51,078 bases of DNA, from positions 1-51,078 of IMG/VR virus record IMGVR_UViG_3300042090_003235; one strand, 5' to 3'. The position numbers and the translations under genes were made by a program. This document shows positions 7,343-51,078 of the stretch, piece after piece; the stretch's first letter is position 1, and the number at the start of each line of letters is the position of its first letter. Below the pieces are notes generated by a model that saw only the letters and a list, made by a program, of their open reading frames with translations, was not told the DNA's origin and ran no database searches. The stretch comes from a virus.

Positions 7343-8490
7343 CAGGCAGAGAAGCTGCAGGGGCCGAGCACCGGCAGCGAGCCGACCGATGCGACGATCG
7401 GCGCCACCGGTGCGGTGACCGTGAATTGCCCCATGCCGGGAATCGCCGAGATCCCAGCGTTCCAGTCGCTTTCGTCGATCGTGCCCCAAGCGCCGCCGGT
7501 CGCCGGGTTGACGCTGCCGCCGACATTGCCGAGGCGCAGGAACATGTCGGTCAGTGCCGCCTGGATCGCCGCCTGCATGGCCGGCGTATTGTTGGCGCCC
7601 AGATTGGCGATGGTGAAGGGAATCGGCTGCGGCGCAGGTGCCACGAGATAGACCAGCGCCTGCACCGGCTGCACCTGATAGATCGCGTTGGCGACGGTCA
7701 GCTGGTCGCCGGTCGCCGCCGGACCACGAACGTCGTTCGCGGCGACGCCATTGGTGCCTTGCGGGAACCCGCCGAACGCGGCCTCGGCCAGGTCGAGCAT
7801 GATATAGACGACGACGGTGCCGGCGCCCATGCCGAGCGGCGTGACCCAGGCGCGGCTGACGCCGGGCACCGCCCTCGCCCATTGCGGATAATCGGCCCTG
7901 GCCCCGCCATGCGGCGGCGCCTGGTACGCGGCCAGCATGCGCTGGCGCAGCGATTGATCGAGCTCGGCATCGGCGCCGTTGACGATGGCGCCGGCGGCCG
8001 TACCGGTCGAGTTGATGCCGGCGATCGGCGTGGACAAGGTCAAGGTGACGCCGGCACCGGCATTGCCCGCCGCCCCGGAAGTCGTCGCGATGATCGGCAC
8101 CAGCACCGTGTTGCCGGACGCCGTGCCGGGCGCCGTCGAGACATAGGCGAAGTTGTCGCTGCGCGTGATCGAGGTGCCGGCCGGCACCGGAACGTTGTTG
8201 CTCGCCACGAAGCTCGCGGTGCCGGTCGCGAAGGTCGCCGGCTCGCGCACCACGCCTTTCAGCGCCGCCCAGGCTTCGAGGAATTCGGCCGTGGCCGTGA
8301 ACGGCGTGGCCTGACGGAAGCACCAGTCGAGGAAGCCGTAATGCAGCTGGGCGAACCCGGCCACGACCCAGGCGAGCTTCGGCAGGATCGCGTTGCGCAG
8401 AAAGGCGTCGATGCCGGTCAAGGTGCCGGCGGCGATATCCTGTAGTGCCAACTGGCGCAGGCCGGTCAAGGTTGGACGTGCGAACGGCAT
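7342..8490 (-). CDS. Baseplate J / Mu gp47-like protein
   Basis: The 382-residue protein has the family order: an N-terminal helical region (TGIDAFLRNAILPKLAWVVA), a central domain beginning EFLEAWAALKGVVREPA with repeated beta segments (GTASFVASNNVPVPAGT), and the DAELDQSLRQRMLAAYQAPP block that is a hallmark of baseplate J proteins. It forms the baseplate wedge in P2/Mu/T4-type tails. The start overlaps the upstream gp46-like stop (ATGA). A much longer open frame extends upstream in this phase but runs through gp46, so it is rejected. Confidence 0.93.
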   Translation of the reverse strand: MPFARPTLTGLRQLALQDIAAGTLTGIDAFLRNAILPKLAWVVAGFAQLHYGFLDWCFRQATPFTATAEFLEAWAALKGVVREPATFATGTASFVASNNVPVPAGTSITRSDNFAYVSTAPGTASGNTVLVPIIATTSGAAGNAGAGVTLTLSTPIAGINSTGTAAGAIVNGADAELDQSLRQRMLAAYQAPPHGGARADYPQWARAVPGVSRAWVTPLGMGAGTVVVYIMLDLAEAAFGGFPQGTNGVAANDVRGPAATGDQLTVANAIYQVQPVQALVYLVAPAPQPIPFTIANLGANNTPAMQAAIQAALTDMFLRLGNVGGSVNPATGGAWGTIDESDWNAGISAIPGMGQFTVTAPVAPIVASVGSLPVLGPCSFSA

Positions 8491-8942
8491 CAGCCTACTC
8501 CTTTCCAGGCCCAGGAATATTTGAAGCTCTGCGACGTGCCGTTCGGCTCTTTGACCGTGACGGCGATGCCGACATAAGAAGTCGTGATCCACCAGGTCGT
8601 GATCTGGACGCTTGCTGCGACCTGGTCGTCGAGCAGCCATTGCAGCGCGTCTCGGGTCATCTGCTCCACCTGCGCCAGGAAGGCCGGGCCGTTCGAGACG
8701 GCGACGCGTTCCAGCGTCCAGAGCAGCGAGCCGGTCGGCTGTTCCTCGTAAGTGTCGATCCAGCAGCCGCGCGGGTCGTCGCTGCCGTCGGGCGGGGCCT
8801 GGTCGGACGGCAGGCGGCGATCGGTGAAGAGGCTGACGAGAATGGCGGTCGCCAGGTCGTTGCCGGTGGCGAGGCCGCCATTGACCACGGACCAGTCGCC
8901 CCGAGCTTTCGCCTGGTCCCAAGCAAGAGAGATATCGGACAT
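8490..8942 (-). CDS. Mu gp46-like baseplate protein (GP46 / W-like)
   Basis: The 150-residue protein fits the phage GP46 family. It has an N-terminal DISLAWDQAKARGDWSV, then GLATGNDLATAILVSLFTDR, a cysteine-containing RGCWIDTYE and a C-terminal strand-rich half. The family forms an inner baseplate or wedge component like T4 gp25. In a standard Mu-type order gp45 precedes it directly. Here a 2.2-kb block with two foreign genes (9108-10969) is inserted between gp45 and gp46, so gp46-gp48 and the fibre genes need read-through or their own promoter. Confidence 0.88.
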   Translation of the reverse strand: MSDISLAWDQAKARGDWSVVNGGLATGNDLATAILVSLFTDRRLPSDQAPPDGSDDPRGCWIDTYEEQPTGSLLWTLERVAVSNGPAFLAQVEQMTRDALQWLLDDQVAASVQITTWWITTSYVGIAVTVKEPNGTSQSFKYSWAWKGVG

Positions 8943-8967
8943 TGCTCCAGCAAAATCCTAAATTACG

Positions 8968-8995
8968 TTGAAAGGGCTAATATTCTTAATATATG
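8968..8995 (+). promoter_or_regulatory. Candidate promoter of the TonB-like lipoprotein gene
   Basis: In the AT-rich gap upstream of the rightward cargo gene, TTGAAA (8968-8973) is followed after 16 bases by TATATG (8990-8995). TAATAT overlaps just before. This is a plausible sigma70-type promoter and the most AT-rich piece nearby. It is not verified. Confidence 0.4.
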
Positions 8996-9107
8996 CGACA
9001 AGGCGAGGCATCACGCGCGTTTGAAATTACGCGTCTCGATGCTGCTCTTTCCATTCCAGACGCTATCGTTTAGCATGAGTAATCCATGCATGCATTCCGG
9101 TAAAACG

Positions 9108-10133
9108 ATGGTCCGCAGAACTTTCTTACATCTGGCGCCTTTCCTCATTCTCGCTGCTTGTGTTCCCGCGCCGGCCGGTCGTGACTTCCCGTCAAGGCCC
9201 GTCGCAGACCATGGCGTCTCATCCCGGCCGGTCAATGGACCTCCGCTTTTCTATCCGACGAACCTGCTGGTACAGCGCAAAGAAGGTCACGCCATTGTCG
9301 AATGTGTCGTGGCGGCCAATGGGATGCCGCGCGACTGCCATGTTGTCGAGACCGTTGGTGGCAGCGAATTCGCCACCTCCGCGCTCGATTACATTTCCAG
9401 GTCCACCTTTGCGCCAGCTATTCGCGGAGGTGTTTCTATCGAGGCGCAATTGCGCTCGACCGTCACCTTCGCGTTGACGCCCCCATCCGGTGGTAATACA
9501 GGATTTAAGAACATCCTGGCGCCCCGCATGGTCGCAGGGGGACCGCTCTTCTATCCTGAGCGCATGAGGCTAGCCCAGCGGGAAGCCAGTGTCGAAGTCA
9601 CGTGTCGAATCACCGTCGAAGGCTTCGCGAAGGACTGCGTTGCCGTCGAAACCATGATCACAGGCGGAAGCTCAGATTCCCAAACGTTCGAAGACGCTGC
9701 GCTCGACTTCATGAAAAATGCGCGCTTCGCACCGGAGCTCAACCACGGCATACCGGTCGACGTGCAACACAAGTCAGTTATCAACTACCGGCTAACCGGC
9801 AGCACGCTACCTCCTGGCATTCCGGATGTGCCGCCCAGCGAACCGGGCCAGCCCATCATGACACCGGCCTCCGCACAACCGATCGCCGGAACGTCCTTGG
9901 CCTTTCCAGCCAAGATGGTCGCGGGTGGCCGCCAAGGCTCTGTCGAAGTCCGATGCTTCGTCACCGTTCAGGGAACGACCCACAACTGCCTCGTCGTCGG
10001 GAGCACAGGAGACCGCGACTTCGAGGCTGCGGCCCTCGAAATCATATCCCATGCAGTGTTTACGCCTACGTTGCTAGACGGCCACGCCCTCGAAGGCCCA
10101 CGCGAATGGACGCTGCGATATGGCGAGCCGTGA
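9108..10133 (+). CDS. Lipoprotein with three TonB C-terminal-like domains (cargo gene)
   Basis: The 341-residue protein has a lipoprotein signal peptide with lipobox LAAC (Cys18), which fixes the start near ATG 9108; ATG 9075 is possible. Three repeats follow at about residues 45-123, 145-229 and 262-338. Each begins with an LFYP/LAFP-type strand, contains a Cys-x10-Cys pair (66/77, 166/177, 283/294) and continues into a helix and a FAPA/FAPE/FTPT turn. This is the pattern of the TonB C-terminal domain, normally one copy in an inner-membrane energy transducer that touches the TonB box of outer-membrane receptors. Here there are three copies, a lipid anchor, and no membrane helix or Pro-rich rod. 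It is transcribed against the baseplate operon and converges on an ExbD-like gene. Confidence 0.8.
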   Translation: MVRRTFLHLAPFLILAACVPAPAGRDFPSRPVADHGVSSRPVNGPPLFYPTNLLVQRKEGHAIVECVVAANGMPRDCHVVETVGGSEFATSALDYISRSTFAPAIRGGVSIEAQLRSTVTFALTPPSGGNTGFKNILAPRMVAGGPLFYPERMRLAQREASVEVTCRITVEGFAKDCVAVETMITGGSSDSQTFEDAALDFMKNARFAPELNHGIPVDVQHKSVINYRLTGSTLPPGIPDVPPSEPGQPIMTPASAQPIAGTSLAFPAKMVAGGRQGSVEVRCFVTVQGTTHNCLVVGSTGDRDFEAAALEIISHAVFTPTLLDGHALEGPREWTLRYGEP

Positions 10134-10276
10134 GCCAGCATCTTAAGACCCGTAACAGATGCAAAGGTGACGTTCATGTCGGTCGATTTATACGTTTGTG
10201 CGCAACTGCACTCCCACCCTGCTCGCAATAGAGAAGTGCAAGTGGTTACAATGATCAGGCCTTCTTTCGGAAGGAC

Positions 10277-10969
10277 TTACCTAAGGGAAACCAGGCCGAC
10301 TTTGAAAAAGCCATGAGACTCGATTTTCGCGATCGTCGCCGCAACCGCTCGATAGGGAGTTAAAATCTCAGAGTCAATATGAAATTCGGGCTCGTCCTTC
10401 CTTGAGACTTGATCCAGTAGATGATCAAAACGAATATCGGAGGAGATCTCCTCAGAATTCCAAAACACAGTCCCAATGAAGTCCACATGAACTTTGACGA
10501 TGCTGATTGGCAGCGCCGGTCGGTAATCGGGTGGAGGTTGAACAAGGCGAGCCGCGTCTGCTATCAAACGTGCTCGGCGCCTCGGATCAGCCGTGCGTGG
10601 TTCCGCGATAAAGTCAACTTCAGACCATTTCTTTCCCACCCCCCTTACGCATTCCGCCAGGACTTTTGTCACCTCCGAAAAATGTTGGTCGGGCCGAGCC
10701 CAAATAAAAAACCGGACACCTGGTAATTTACCCGCTACAGTCTCAATTTCGGTGTGAAGACTTTCCGAGTCCTTGACCGCTCTTCCATCTAATCTATAAT
10801 CATCTTGACTACCGATCTCAATATCTACATCGATCGTGCCAGCCGGACCAGCAAGCGCTGCTGGTAGTTCTGCCTTAGCTTCCTGATGGCCACAAAAACC
10901 GAAGAAGAAGCATAGAGCTAGAACTGTAGCGCCTGAAGCAATATATCTAAAAAACTGAAAACGCTGCAC
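10277..10969 (-). CDS. Protein with two ExbD/TolR-like periplasmic domains (cargo gene)
   Basis: GTG 10969 is preferred as start because GGAGG lies six bases upstream; the TTG at 10975 would touch that site. The 230-residue product has one N-terminal membrane segment (about 10-26) and then two periplasmic modules of ExbD/TolR type. The first spans about 46-125 (DYRLDGRAVKDSESLHTEI, FFIWARPDQHFSEVTKVL). The second spans about 154-228 (GTVFWNSEEISSD, EFHIDSEILTPYRAVA, KVGLVSL). ExbD normally has one such module plus a membrane Asp needed for proton flow. I see no Asp in this membrane helix, so an ion-driven motor is unlikely. No ExbB is encoded nearby. The gene converges on the triple TonB-C lipoprotein and is AT-richer than the tail genes. 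Confidence 0.7.
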   Translation of the reverse strand: MQRFQFFRYIASGATVLALCFFFGFCGHQEAKAELPAALAGPAGTIDVDIEIGSQDDYRLDGRAVKDSESLHTEIETVAGKLPGVRFFIWARPDQHFSEVTKVLAECVRGVGKKWSEVDFIAEPRTADPRRRARLIADAARLVQPPPDYRPALPISIVKVHVDFIGTVFWNSEEISSDIRFDHLLDQVSRKDEPEFHIDSEILTPYRAVAATIAKIESHGFFKVGLVSLR

Positions 10970-11037
10970 TTTCAACCTCCACGCCGTCTAGAATATTAAC
11001 GGTTTTTGATATCATGCCTGCCTTCAAGAATCGAACC

Positions 11038-11069
11038 GCTTCGTGTGAACACCTAAGCGAACACGAAGC
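11038..11069. repeat. Inverted repeat between baseplate gp45 gene and cargo block
   Basis: GCTTCGTGT (11038-11046) is matched perfectly by ACACGAAGC (11061-11069) with a 14-base spacer. There is no T-run on either side. It lies about 50 bases past the gp45-like stop and about 70 bases upstream of the ExbD-like gene. It could be a terminator of the upstream operon, an operator for the cargo gene, or a scar of the insertion. Confidence 0.55.
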
Positions 11070-11119
11070 TAGCAGGCGACGTGCCGGGAATGGAATGCGG
11101 CCGTCTGGCCTTGAAAAGA

Positions 11120-11668
11120 CTACTGCGGCGGCCCGCTCTTGCCGCCGCCCGGCTGGACCTCGGTCGAGACGTGGTTTTGCAGGCTGATCGAGCCCGCGAC
11201 CACGTCGCCGGTCGTATTGACCTTGCCGTTGACTTGAACATCGCCGTTGATGATCACGTCGGGCGCGTTGATCGTGACCGTGGTTGCCCCGTTGATCACG
11301 ACCGGCGTATTGGCCGCGTTGATCTCGATCGGGCCGTTCGGCACGAAAAACAGAAACCGCTGGAACGCGTCATAAATCTGGGTGCCGCCCGACGCGATGT
11401 TCTTCGGCCGGAGCGCCTGGTTGTTCTGGCCGATCACGGCGACCATGGTCGGGTCGCCTTGCGCCGAGATGGTCACCACATCGGTGCCGATCGGCGCCAC
11501 CGACGAGAACCCGAAGAGATGCACGACCGGCACGCTGTCGCGCAGCGTCAACTGGTTGACCTGGATCTGCACCGTCTGCACCGTCCCGGAATCATCCGGC
11601 ACCGTGGTCGTCGTGCCGAAGCCCAGCGCATGCTGGATGCGCCGGAAGGCTCTGCCGATCGCGGTCAT
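11120..11668 (-). CDS. Mu gp45-like / baseplate assembly protein V (spike)
   Basis: The 182-residue protein matches the gpV/gp45 spike family. The N-terminal OB-like part includes VNQLTLRDSVPVVHLFGFSS and the family signature TISAQGDPTMVAVIGQNN. The C-terminus is a run of beta repeats (VVINGATTVTINAPDVIING, NGKVNTTGDVVAGSI), as in the needle-shaped beta-helix that punctures the outer membrane. The start overlaps the gp44-like stop by four bases. After this gene the operon is interrupted by the foreign cargo block. Confidence 0.9.
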   Translation of the reverse strand: MTAIGRAFRRIQHALGFGTTTTVPDDSGTVQTVQIQVNQLTLRDSVPVVHLFGFSSVAPIGTDVVTISAQGDPTMVAVIGQNNQALRPKNIASGGTQIYDAFQRFLFFVPNGPIEINAANTPVVINGATTVTINAPDVIINGDVQVNGKVNTTGDVVAGSISLQNHVSTEVQPGGGKSGPPQ

Positions 11669-40699: not shown

Positions 40700-42178
40700 A
40701 TGAGGGTCGGATATCGCTTCGGGCCGTTTGAACTGTCGCTCACCGAACGGTTCGTGATGCGCGGCCGTCACCCGGTTCCGCTTAGCCCGAAGGAGTTCGC
40801 CGTCCTGGCGCTTCTCGTTCGGGAAAGCGGCGAAGTCGTCGAAACCGAGGATTTCATCCGCGACGCCTGGGCAGGCGCGCCGATCGAGGAAGGTAGCCTT
40901 CGCTCGTATATTAAGAATTTGCGTCAGGCGATCGGCGAGGATGTGATCCTGACAGTCCGCAAGACTGGCTACAGGCTCGTCCCGCAGGTCGAACGCGCCT
41001 ATACCGCCGCCGAGCAGCGCGCGGTCATGCTTGCCACGACTTTCCTCGAGGCAGAGGTGAAACGGCAGTCCATGCCCGACGCAGAATGGGATGAACTCTA
41101 TAAGCCGCTCATCGATGAAGTTCGCGCCTCGCTTGACTGGTCTTTAGCACATCCTACTCGCCGTCACATTGCCGTCGCCTTAGGCGGCACGACCGCGCGG
41201 TTGTTCGAGCGCCTGTCGCTTCTGCCGGAAGGGCGTACCTATTGTGATCGCGTGCTCGATCTGGTCTACGACCGCGACGCCGATAGCCTCGATGACGACG
41301 TCGATCGCACCGACGCCGCCCGCTTGTTCCAATATGCCGGCATACTCTGGCGCGAGGCAGACCGACCACGGTCGCTATCACTCTTCAAACGCGCCGCCAC
41401 TCTGTGCCGCGAGACCGGCGACACGCGCACGCTCGGCCAGGTGCTGACTCTTGTGGGCGGCGCGCATCTCTATCTCGGCAATTATGCCGATGCCGAACTT
41501 GCGCTCGGCGCGGGGGAGAAGATTCTGCGAACGAGCGACCAGACGAAGTGGCTATGGAACGCTCTTAATGATTCCGGTTATCTTGCGTCGCTGATGAACT
41601 TTCCTGAGAAGGCTCGCCGATACTTTGAACTGGCCCGCGACTTGGCGATAATGCTAAGAGATCCAATTCGCGAAGGCATAGTGATTCTAAACTTCGGTGA
41701 AATGGAGTTCCGCCACAATGCTATTGATCGAGCCATAGAGCGCATGAAAGAGGCAGTTTCGGTGCTTAGGCCGGCACCAGCGTCTTTTGCAGCGAGGCCG
41801 TTGGTTAATCTATCAACATACTATTGTATATCTGGTGATATTCGATCGGCAGCAAGCGCGGTCCGATCGGCCTTTCACACCTTCCGCCAGGAAGGTGGCT
41901 ATTGGCTCCGGCTCTGTCTTCAGCCGTGCGCCCTTATCGCATGTCATAACGGGTATCATGCTGATGCCGCCCGGTTGCTGGGGTTCGTAAATTCAGCCTA
42001 CTTACAGTTCGGAGAGGCATGGCAACTCGCTGAACGTCAGCTCCATGATATAGTCTTGCGCGCTCTCTCTGAGAACCTCACGCCAGAAAGCTTACGTATA
42101 TGGTCAGAAGAGGGTGCTCGCTGGAGTGAGGCTCAAGCGGTCAATTGCGCATCGACACTGTTCGTCTCGACCAATTAG
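40700..42178 (+). CDS. OmpR-type winged-helix / TPR regulator (cargo gene)
   Basis: A 492-residue protein. Residues 1-95 are an OmpR/PhoB-type winged helix: YRFGPFELSLTERFVMRGRH, LSPKEFAVLALLVRESGEVV, then GSLRSYIKNLRQAIGED and ILTVRKTGYRLVP. The rest is helical repeat, apparently TPR-like (ARLFQYAGILWREADRPRSL, LVGGAHLYLGNYADAELALG, ARRYFELARDLAIM). CadC/SARP-type regulators share this build; there is no membrane helix, so it should be cytoplasmic. It lies in the prophage between immunity and early genes, is transcribed rightward, and is followed after 28 bases by a proline-rich mini-protein. It is probably expressed in the lysogen and may act on the host. Confidence 0.85.
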   Translation: MRVGYRFGPFELSLTERFVMRGRHPVPLSPKEFAVLALLVRESGEVVETEDFIRDAWAGAPIEEGSLRSYIKNLRQAIGEDVILTVRKTGYRLVPQVERAYTAAEQRAVMLATTFLEAEVKRQSMPDAEWDELYKPLIDEVRASLDWSLAHPTRRHIAVALGGTTARLFERLSLLPEGRTYCDRVLDLVYDRDADSLDDDVDRTDAARLFQYAGILWREADRPRSLSLFKRAATLCRETGDTRTLGQVLTLVGGAHLYLGNYADAELALGAGEKILRTSDQTKWLWNALNDSGYLASLMNFPEKARRYFELARDLAIMLRDPIREGIVILNFGEMEFRHNAIDRAIERMKEAVSVLRPAPASFAARPLVNLSTYYCISGDIRSAASAVRSAFHTFRQEGGYWLRLCLQPCALIACHNGYHADAARLLGFVNSAYLQFGEAWQLAERQLHDIVLRALSENLTPESLRIWSEEGARWSEAQAVNCASTLFVSTN

Positions 42179-49193: not shown

Positions 49194-49538
49194 ATGTTGA
49201 TGACCGTTTTCGCGCTGTTTGCTCCGCTGCTACGCCGCGCGCGGTTTCGCAAGACATGGGATACCCGCGCAGGTGGATTGCGCACCACCGAGTGGCGCCG
49301 CGAGGAGCCGGACGGCCGCACGCTAGTCTGTCATATCTCGGAGGACGGCCAACACAGCCTATCCCACAGCTGGCTTGGATGCGGCGATACGATGCCCACC
49401 TATTTCAAGGCTCCGGAGGATCTGGCTGCCGCTATCGAGTCTGAAACAACACGCGCTGATAGCCGTTACCGAGATCCGGATAATCATTACGCCCCAGGAG
49501 CGCGGGACTTCCTGCTGTCTAAGCGGGCAATGGCTTGA
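49194..49538 (+). CDS. Hypothetical protein between excisionase and integrase
   Basis: A frame of about 114 residues from ATG 49194, with AGGAGA just upstream; ATG 49200 is nearly as good. A hydrophobic start (LMTVFALFAPLLRR) might be a membrane anchor or a short signal. The rest is polar: GLRTTEWRREEPDGRTLVCH, ISEDGQHSLSHSWLGCGDTM, and a helix ending RDFLLSKRAMA. I recognise no family. An overlapping frame from 49190 (84 residues) is less likely. About 50 bases separate it from the integrase. Confidence 0.55.
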   Translation: MLMTVFALFAPLLRRARFRKTWDTRAGGLRTTEWRREEPDGRTLVCHISEDGQHSLSHSWLGCGDTMPTYFKAPEDLAAAIESETTRADSRYRDPDNHYAPGARDFLLSKRAMA

Positions 49539-49587
49539 CCCTGTGCCGCCGTCGGGACGATCATCCCGAATAACAAAGGGGCGAGTT

Positions 49588-51078
49588 ATGTCGGTCTACT
49601 ACAACAGGGCTCGCGGGCACTGGATGTATGATTTCGAGCGCGGCGGCGAACGCCATGCCGGCTATTGTGTCGACCTCGAGACGGATGACCCGGCCCGCAA
49701 CAAGACCGAAGCCAAGCGGATCGAGGAAAAGCTGAAGGTGCGGGCTGGTGCTGCGGCCAAAGCCGCGCGCGATCGGCAATCGGCGTCAGACGCGACCGGC
49801 GTCACGGTCGCGATGATTCTGCAGGAATATCTGTCGCGCGCCAGCCAGCGGAATCGGAGCGCGTCGCTTAACGCGACATATGCCCGCGAGATCGCCGGAT
49901 ATTTCGGCGCCGGCCGGCTGCTCTCCGACATCACGGAGCGCGATATCGACGAATTTCGCCGATGGCTGATGGCGCAGCCCGTCAAGAGCTATCTGGGCGG
50001 CCCGCGGCGCAAGCAGGACATCGAACCGGATCAACGCTTTCGGGCGAGCGGCCGGACCCGCGCGCCGGCCACCGTCAATCACTATCTGCTGGCGCTCCAA
50101 TCGGCCTGGACCAAGGCCCATGCGCGCCATGCGCACCGCCTTCACAGGTTTCCGGCCTGCCCGCCGATCGAGCTTCTGCCGGCGCCGGAGCACATCCCGA
50201 ACCCCGTCCGCAACGAGGATGTTGCGCGGCTGATCGCTGTAGCGCCCCATCATCTGCTCGTGACGATCGCGCTCGCGACGCACACCTCGATGCGCCTTGA
50301 AGAAATCCTCGGCCTCGAATGGAGCGAGGTCAATTTCGACTTCGGCATCATCCGCCTCGAGCCGCGGACCAAGGGCTTCAAGGGCCGGGTCATACATCTG
50401 ACCGAGATGGCGCTCGGCCTGCTTCGCTTCCTGCATGACACGCGGCCGGAGGGGCAGATTCGCGTGGTGCTCTATTGGCCGTCCGGGTTCGGGAACGGGA
50501 CGCCGCGGCCGATTTCAAGCATCCGCACGGCATGGGTGACCGCGCTCAAGGCCACCGGCCTTGAGCAGACCTATCGGTTCCATGACCTCCGCGGTGCCAT
50601 GGGTACCTATTTGGCCGCGCAGGGCGTCAACACGATGACCTTGCAGAAGTGGCTGGGCCATGCGGACATCAAGACCACGCAGCGCTACGTGGCCCTGGCC
50701 GATCTGGGCCAGCGCACCGCCAGCAGGATCGCCGAAGGCTATGCCGGCACGGACGGCGTCCTCGAACAGGTACAGCGCAAACCAATCTTGTCGACCAAGG
50801 ACGAGGCCCGGCGCTTCGTCGGCGTCTATGCGGCAGCAAAGACCCGATACGAGGCAAAGATCACGATCAAGGTCAACGAAAACGGCAAATCGACGCGCCG
50901 TGTCCTCTACCTCGGCAGCTACGGCAGCGCCGAGGACGCGGCCCGTGCCTACGACGCCGAGGCTCTAAAGCACCCCGGCCGGCGCCTGAATTTTCCGGGT
51001 GCGGAACTCGCAAACCGCCCCGACTCCCAAACAGAAAGTCCCAAACGCGCCCGTGATCGCAAACAAGCGTCAGGGTAA
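49588..51078 (+). CDS. int: Tyrosine integrase with C-terminal AP2 domain
   Basis: The 496-residue protein starts at ATG 49588; the open frame upstream lacks similarity. A core-binding domain lies at about 70-185 and the catalytic domain at about 205-385. The catalytic residues are all visible: Arg236 in THTSMRLEEILGLEW, Lys262, His332 and Arg335 in FHDLRGAMGTYLAA, His358 in WLGHADIKTTQ and the nucleophile Tyr367 in QRYVAL. After the normal end, residues 408-471 form an AP2/ERF-like domain (FVGVYAAAKTRYEAKITI, then YLGSYGSAEDAARAYDAEAL and LNFP). AP2 domains are DNA-binding and usually attached to HNH nucleases in phages. It should integrate into tRNA-Pro(UGG). The window ends at its stop codon. 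Confidence 0.95.
   Translation: MSVYYNRARGHWMYDFERGGERHAGYCVDLETDDPARNKTEAKRIEEKLKVRAGAAAKAARDRQSASDATGVTVAMILQEYLSRASQRNRSASLNATYAREIAGYFGAGRLLSDITERDIDEFRRWLMAQPVKSYLGGPRRKQDIEPDQRFRASGRTRAPATVNHYLLALQSAWTKAHARHAHRLHRFPACPPIELLPAPEHIPNPVRNEDVARLIAVAPHHLLVTIALATHTSMRLEEILGLEWSEVNFDFGIIRLEPRTKGFKGRVIHLTEMALGLLRFLHDTRPEGQIRVVLYWPSGFGNGTPRPISSIRTAWVTALKATGLEQTYRFHDLRGAMGTYLAAQGVNTMTLQKWLGHADIKTTQRYVALADLGQRTASRIAEGYAGTDGVLEQVQRKPILSTKDEARRFVGVYAAAKTRYEAKITIKVNENGKSTRRVLYLGSYGSAEDAARAYDAEALKHPGRRLNFPGAELANRPDSQTESPKRARDRKQASG

Follow-up and report, generated by a model that had tools for sequence, protein, structure and literature searches.

Two genes inserted into the baseplate operon of a virus appear, judged from their sequences, to encode proteins that resemble parts of one and the same operon, the tonB-exbB-exbD1-exbD2 operon of Acetobacteraceae. 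One product is a lipoprotein with three TonB C-terminal domains (tonB3), the other a chain with two ExbD periplasmic domains (exbD1-2 fusion). We tentatively favour the reading, though less than half convinced of it, that the insert is phage cargo (a moron) that would disconnect the host Ton relay by double mimicry and serve superinfection exclusion or immunity.

The insert and its site

The window, i.e., the whole stretch of DNA analysed (51,078 nucleotides), is a virus record of 51 kb that encodes portal, large terminase, tail sheath and baseplate proteins and an integrase. The baseplate hub gene most closely resembles that of a metagenomic virus, here called L085 (64%), and, among named phages, that of Komagataeibacter phage phiKM1 (46%), which makes a host in or near the Acetobacteraceae likely, if not proven. 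The integrase ORF (49375-51078, 567 aa), whose C-terminus gives a weak AP2-like match, runs up to the end of the record; the sole tRNA (Arg, 560-636) lies at the opposite end, and no terminal repeat was found. A second low-GC island (40700-42178, about 56-60%) encodes an OmpR-type DNA-binding domain fused to TPR repeats and is likely cargo as well. The segment of interest and its neighbours are:

8943-11119, no strand: inserted cargo segment (by its GC and by comparing the junction to the empty L085 site and to 156 related loci)
8490-8942, minus strand: gp46-like baseplate wedge subunit, downstream of the insert (phrog_180, E 5e-37)
11120-11668, minus strand: gp45-like baseplate assembly protein, upstream of the insert (tblastn to gp45 of phiKM1 and others)

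The insert comprises 2,177 bp and fills precisely the space from the gp45 stop (11120) to the gp46 start (8942) of a Mu-type baseplate operon. Its GC content is 54% versus 66% for the window. A previous sequence-only reading had seen two convergent genes that split a normally contiguous gp45-gp46 order. The split is real: both ORFs are intact, and in L085, the nearest relative, the site is empty, the gp45 stop and the gp46 start overlapping as TAATG. Contiguity is indeed the rule in most relatives; between the end of gp44 and the start of gp46 the median distance in 156 related loci is 556 nt, and 12 of them have more than 900 nt there. The start at 8943 was also correctly placed, but the end had been set at 10984, while the insert runs to 11119. 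Neither cargo protein was matched in any of the 163 loci scanned. The junction tolerates insertions, since three related phages (L142, L152 and L092) carry large additions there: collagen-like repeats in the gp45 gene and fibre or lyase-like genes.

One of the two genes is oriented against the late operon. Because they differ in strand and in GC (60% and 49%), they may not have arrived together, and separate origins are possible. A promoter and terminator scan of the insert stayed at chance level and yielded no credible promoter, and Rfam had no match in the region. The 9-mer TAATATTCT occurs only twice in the window, at 8978-8986 (plus) and 10990-10998 (minus), each copy upstream of one cargo gene and in the orientation of that gene. 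It could possibly be a shared control element, or chance; as both copies lie in locally AT-rich DNA, we keep it as a lead only.

The tonB3 lipoprotein

The features of the first cargo gene are:

9108-10133, plus strand: tonB3, lipoprotein of 341 aa with three TonB C-terminal domains (Pfam/NCBIfam, host-TonB profile, AF2 and fold match, motif scan)
9150-9161, plus strand: lipobox L-A-A-C, Cys18 (read from sequence)
9189-9479, plus strand: TonB_C repeat 1, aa 28-124 (identity to TonB of Acetobacteraceae up to 43%)
9522-9797, plus strand: TonB_C repeat 2, aa 139-230 (Acetobacteraceae TonB profile)
9834-10118, plus strand: TonB_C repeat 3, aa 243-337 (Acetobacteraceae TonB profile)

Pfam finds PF03544 in three stretches of the protein with 128.7 bits against a cut-off of 24.6 (E 1.2e-37). 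A profile built from twelve Acetobacteraceae TonB proteins matches every repeat (i-E 9e-29, 3e-21 and 4e-21). The AF2 model (mean pLDDT 79) displays three TonB folds that agree in the order of their strands and helices; among solved structures, repeat 1 is best matched by 6i97_D, a TonB domain bound to FoxA (Z 12.1, rmsd 2.3, 90 aligned). In the structure ranking TonB stands on top with this Z of 12.1; TolA reaches 7.1 at best. Cys-x10-Cys recurs in all three repeats (Cys 66, 166 and 283), and 32 of 32 host TonB domains have it too; it is a signature of Acetobacteraceae TonB, not a phage oddity. Pfam, host profile and fold agree on the three TonB-C repeats that had been read from the letters, and the motif scan on the cysteine pair in each.

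The lipobox reads LILAA-Cys18 and is followed by Val at position +2, i.e., without the inner-membrane Asp signal. The protein is predicted to be an exported lipoprotein. It is not a complete TonB transducer: in the motif scan the lipobox takes the place of the transmembrane anchor, and neither a PPPP run nor a D-box motif was found.

The exbD1-2 fusion

The second cargo gene was delineated as follows:

10277-10975, minus strand: exbD1-2 fusion, exported protein (as predicted) of 232 aa with two ExbD periplasmic domains (profiles, tree, AF2, fold, motif scan)
10598-10834, minus strand: ExbD1-like periplasmic domain, aa 48-126 (profile bits, tree, fold order)
10286-10513, minus strand: ExbD2-like periplasmic domain, aa 155-230 (profile bits; 8p9r, Z 11.2)

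The 232 residues are counted from a TTG; a GTG at 10969, six bases after GGAGG, looks the likelier start. The N-terminus consists of a hydrophobic stretch followed by AKA/E. The protein had been described as membrane-anchored without an Asp in its membrane helix. The missing acid is confirmed, residues 1-31 containing neither Asp nor Glu; the anchor is less secure, for a cleavable signal peptide appears to be at least as good a reading, and we predict an exported chain. The ExbD transmembrane motif NTTPL.DVM, present in 37 of 40 host ExbD1 and in 40 of 40 host ExbD2 sequences, is missing. The fusion therefore is not a complete ExbD motor subunit, which has a transmembrane helix with a conserved Asp. 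Nor does it reach the gathering score of PF02472 (18.9 versus 25.4 bits), only the periplasmic half being matched.

Profiles of Acetobacteraceae periplasmic halves gave domain 1 18.3 bits for ExbD1, 9.6 for ExbD2 and 6.4 for TolR; domain 2 obtained 50.5 bits for ExbD2, 24.4 for ExbD1 and 12.6 for TolR. Against ExbD1, the best of 1,000 shuffles of domain 1 scored 5.2 bits. The preference of domain 1 for ExbD1, 8.7 bits, recurred in 20 of 20 subsamples, and not one of 667 scored shuffles attained it; the identity of the domain to ExbD1 is at most about 26%. In the tree, domain 1 falls on the ExbD1 side, with a very long branch, and domain 2 inside ExbD2, the two being separated by a branch with a support of 97/100. 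"ExbD1-like" should be understood as nearest to ExbD1 among the three tested types and no more, since ExbD1 could simply be the less derived type.

Domain 2 also matches the TolR model of NCBIfam (1e-5) and superimposes on E. coli ExbD (8p9r) with a Z of 11.2 and an rmsd of 1.8 Å over 73 residues. AF2 gives domain 1 a core pLDDT of about 72-85 and the strand-helix order of domain 2, the last strand not being predicted; no alignment row covered this domain, and the PDB list showed no separate match to it, being taken up by domain 2 matches and middling unrelated folds. Both domains keep the C-terminal strand specific for their paralogue. In domain 1 it reads EVDFIAEP (host ExbD1: typically HVDFITEQ/HVDFITE or RIDFITE), in domain 2 KVGLV (host ExbD2: KLGIV; E. 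coli ExbD: KIGLV). By sequence, domain 2 is clearly an ExbD; domain 1 is a weaker case, yet above shuffles. Of the earlier description, "two ExbD/TolR-like periplasmic domains", the first name stands for both and the second scored lowest for both; ExbD1-like plus ExbD2-like is more exact. Structure predictions and profiles together bear out the TonB-C and the ExbD assignments, so that the first refutation proposed earlier, predicted structures unlike TonB-C and ExbD, does not apply.

Kinship to the host ton operon

In Acetobacteraceae about 2 kb separate the tonB and exbD matches. In 40 of 40 ton loci exbD2 comes after exbD1, and tonB was found upstream in 32 (some loci end at contig ends). 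The domain order in the fusion is that of the host operon. Just after the membrane helix, between prolines, the host TonBs have PPIxTKIIxE (26 of 32 by pattern), which would fit a D-box. tonB3 has no such D-box-like strand, no Pro-rich linker and no membrane helix. Compared with the host ton operon, that of Xanthomonas included, the cargo is alike in the TonB C-terminal sequence with Cys-x10-Cys and in the ExbD1-ExbD2 order. Unlike the operon, it has neither exbB nor any transmembrane anchor, and the ExbD Asp, the D-box and the Pro-rich linker are missing as well; moreover, its TonB domain is tripled and its ExbD domains are fused and, as predicted, exported. The first impression of periplasmic recognition parts in multiple copies, with the motor absent, was correct: all motor modules are missing from the insert.

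Relatives of the pair

A single copy of the pair is known. The search covered samples of genomes and collections, of course, and close relatives of the window may be missing from them. An occurrence of the two genes side by side elsewhere, which had been proposed as a check, did not turn up: the pair is in no other phage, plasmid or sampled genome searched. IMG/VR, phage records and plasmids contained no close relative of either protein, only ordinary host-type operons, and profile-guided IMG/VR scans with Acetobacteraceae-type ExbD2 and TonB domains gave no confirmed match. PHROGs and PADLOC left the cargo unmatched; among BFVD structures nothing had an E below 0.001. No double-ExbD protein was found in 299 genomes of the family and 385 of the class, where only ordinary single ExbDs matching domain 2 were seen, and 397 genomes of the order gave no match at a stricter cut-off. 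TonB/ExbD matches in "Acinetobacter phage MD-2021a" were rejected as bacterial chromosome contigs filed as phage. These INPHARED records, among them L302 (CAKLQH020000011.1), hold cirA-tonB-exbB-exbD-exbD and glcB; because such bacterial chromosome genes are in them, the MD-2021a records look misfiled.

Five Acetobacteraceae chromosomes (L214, L216, L218, L220 and L215) encode exported proteins or lipoproteins with one or two TonB_C domains, Cys-x10-Cys and no motor anchor. Their genes often adjoin those of membrane-bound PQQ-dehydrogenase-like or SDR proteins (neighbours named by eye), and no exbD lies near them in the Acetobacteraceae loci examined. Like tonB3, the proteins of L214, L216, L218 and L220 start with a signal peptide or lipobox, followed by TonB_C with Cys-x10-Cys; unlike tonB3, they have one or two domains, are not on phages and have no ExbD-like neighbour. 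As family chromosomes thus hold exported multi-TonB_C proteins in ordinary contexts without exbD neighbours, tonB3 alone may be an ordinary member of this group. The ExbD1-ExbD2 fusion is the stranger half of the pair.

A possible blockade of the Ton relay

In E. coli, two periplasmic domains of ExbD share one TonB D-box, which they bind via their C-terminal strand, and the ExbD mutation L132Q abolishes both D-box binding and transport (PMC10907165). Since two ExbD domains bind one D-box, the fusion looks like a single-chain D-box trap. It would play the part of a ready-made ExbD dimer and seize host TonB by its D-box, and the captured TonB could not engage the real ExbBD motor. At the other end, tonB3, presumably tethered to the outer membrane, would occupy the exposed TonB boxes of TonB-dependent transporters. 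Such uncoupling would keep out phages or bacteriocins that depend on energised receptors, and the lysogen would pay for it with some loss of nutrient uptake. That both ends of the relay are mimicked at once, the ExbD1-ExbD2 clamp titrating TonB and the triple TonB titrating the transporters, we suggest with more reserve; it is a conceivable scheme about which doubts prevail.

A Ton blocker can bring an anti-phage benefit, as tonB, exbB and exbD1 of Xanthomonas are involved in infection by phage PhiL7; exbD2 is not essential there (PMC3551730). A precedent on the receptor side is Llp of T5, a periplasmic phage lipoprotein that inactivates FhuA, a TonB-dependent transporter (PMC9586334). The idea of decoys or blockers of the Ton and Tol systems gains support for its Ton part because one host operon is matched, motor parts and D-box are absent and the strands that grip the D-box are kept; its Tol part fares badly, TolR being the poorest match of both ExbD domains. 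The precise, off-GC insertion with one gene opposite to the late operon also counts for a blockade. Against it stand the single copy, the weak domain 1, the lack of a credible promoter, the GC difference between the two genes and the nutrient cost to the lysogen. Also, the stand-alone multi-TonB_C exported proteins of host chromosomes suggest that the architecture need not be anti-Ton.

Alternative explanations

The same chromosomal proteins speak for captured host envelope genes without any anti-Ton activity, with another envelope function (scaffold, chaperone for outer-membrane transporters) or as neutral passengers; tonB3 would then belong with these proteins, and the ExbD-like protein would be a further periplasmic orphan. 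Several Acetobacteraceae have such exported proteins or lipoproteins with one or two TonB_C domains, encoded next to PQQ-dehydrogenase-like or SDR genes and without exbD, and the different GC of the cargo genes fits as well. We nevertheless regard this explanation as unlikely: no chromosomal protein with three TonB_C domains or a linked ExbD was found, no genome searched had a stand-alone double ExbD, and it is the ton operon, rather than random envelope genes, that both cargo genes resemble most.

The pair might also help Ton, as adaptors that bridge TonB to particular transporters or tune transenvelope signalling to the benefit of lysogen nutrition. The contact surfaces appear conserved, and Xanthomonas can take up iron without ExbD2 but requires it for a signalling-type response (PMC3551730). 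However, neither protein can be pulled, since a transmembrane anchor, a motor contact, a Pro-rich linker and a D-box are all missing, and two unlinked periplasmic halves are more like inhibitors than couplers. Adaptors are improbable.

A target other than Ton, be it Tol or, on the side of the phage itself, lysis or tail assembly, has in its favour the name TolR of the NCBIfam match and the site within the baseplate operon. It is a poor candidate, since Acetobacteraceae profiles put ExbD over TolR for both domains (18.3 versus 6.4 and 50.5 versus 12.6 bits), TonB structures rank over TolA for tonB3 (Z 12.1 versus 7.1 at best), and relatives build the same tail without the cargo genes. An assembly chimera or decaying junk, suggested by the single IMG/VR virus record and a GC below that of the phage, is hardly credible with an insert exactly between stop and start codon, two frames intact over 1 kb and 0.7 kb, and three repeats that all keep fold residues and cysteines.

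Known systems and implications

Llp of T5 and Cor of T1, phi80 and N15 share with tonB3 that they are phage-encoded exported lipoproteins with a cysteine pair, in the case of tonB3 with the lipobox LAAC ending at residue 18 (read from sequence); a periplasmic action on TonB-dependent transporters would be expected for all of them. Unlike the cargo, Llp and Cor are small, bind the plug, are unrelated in sequence, mimic neither TonB nor ExbD and leave the motor side untouched. The exported TonB periplasmic domain of Howard et al. 2001, a further precedent for a blockade, reportedly inhibited FhuA and FecA transport. Like tonB3, this recombinant construct is a motorless part of TonB; unlike the cargo, it is laboratory-made, has one domain copy, no lipid anchor and no ExbD partner.

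What appears new here is that both cargo proteins can be traced, by sequence, to parts of a single host ton operon. That the phage kept one domain of each ExbD in one chain suggests that ExbD1 and ExbD2 work as a heterodimer. Each of the phage exclusion lipoproteins described so far acts on a single receptor; a mimic of motor coupling, if true, would disable energy-dependent receptors as a class. Nature would also have set up a test of whether the contact between ExbD and the D-box is required, a requirement that a 2026 review lists as not yet known (PMC12905483).
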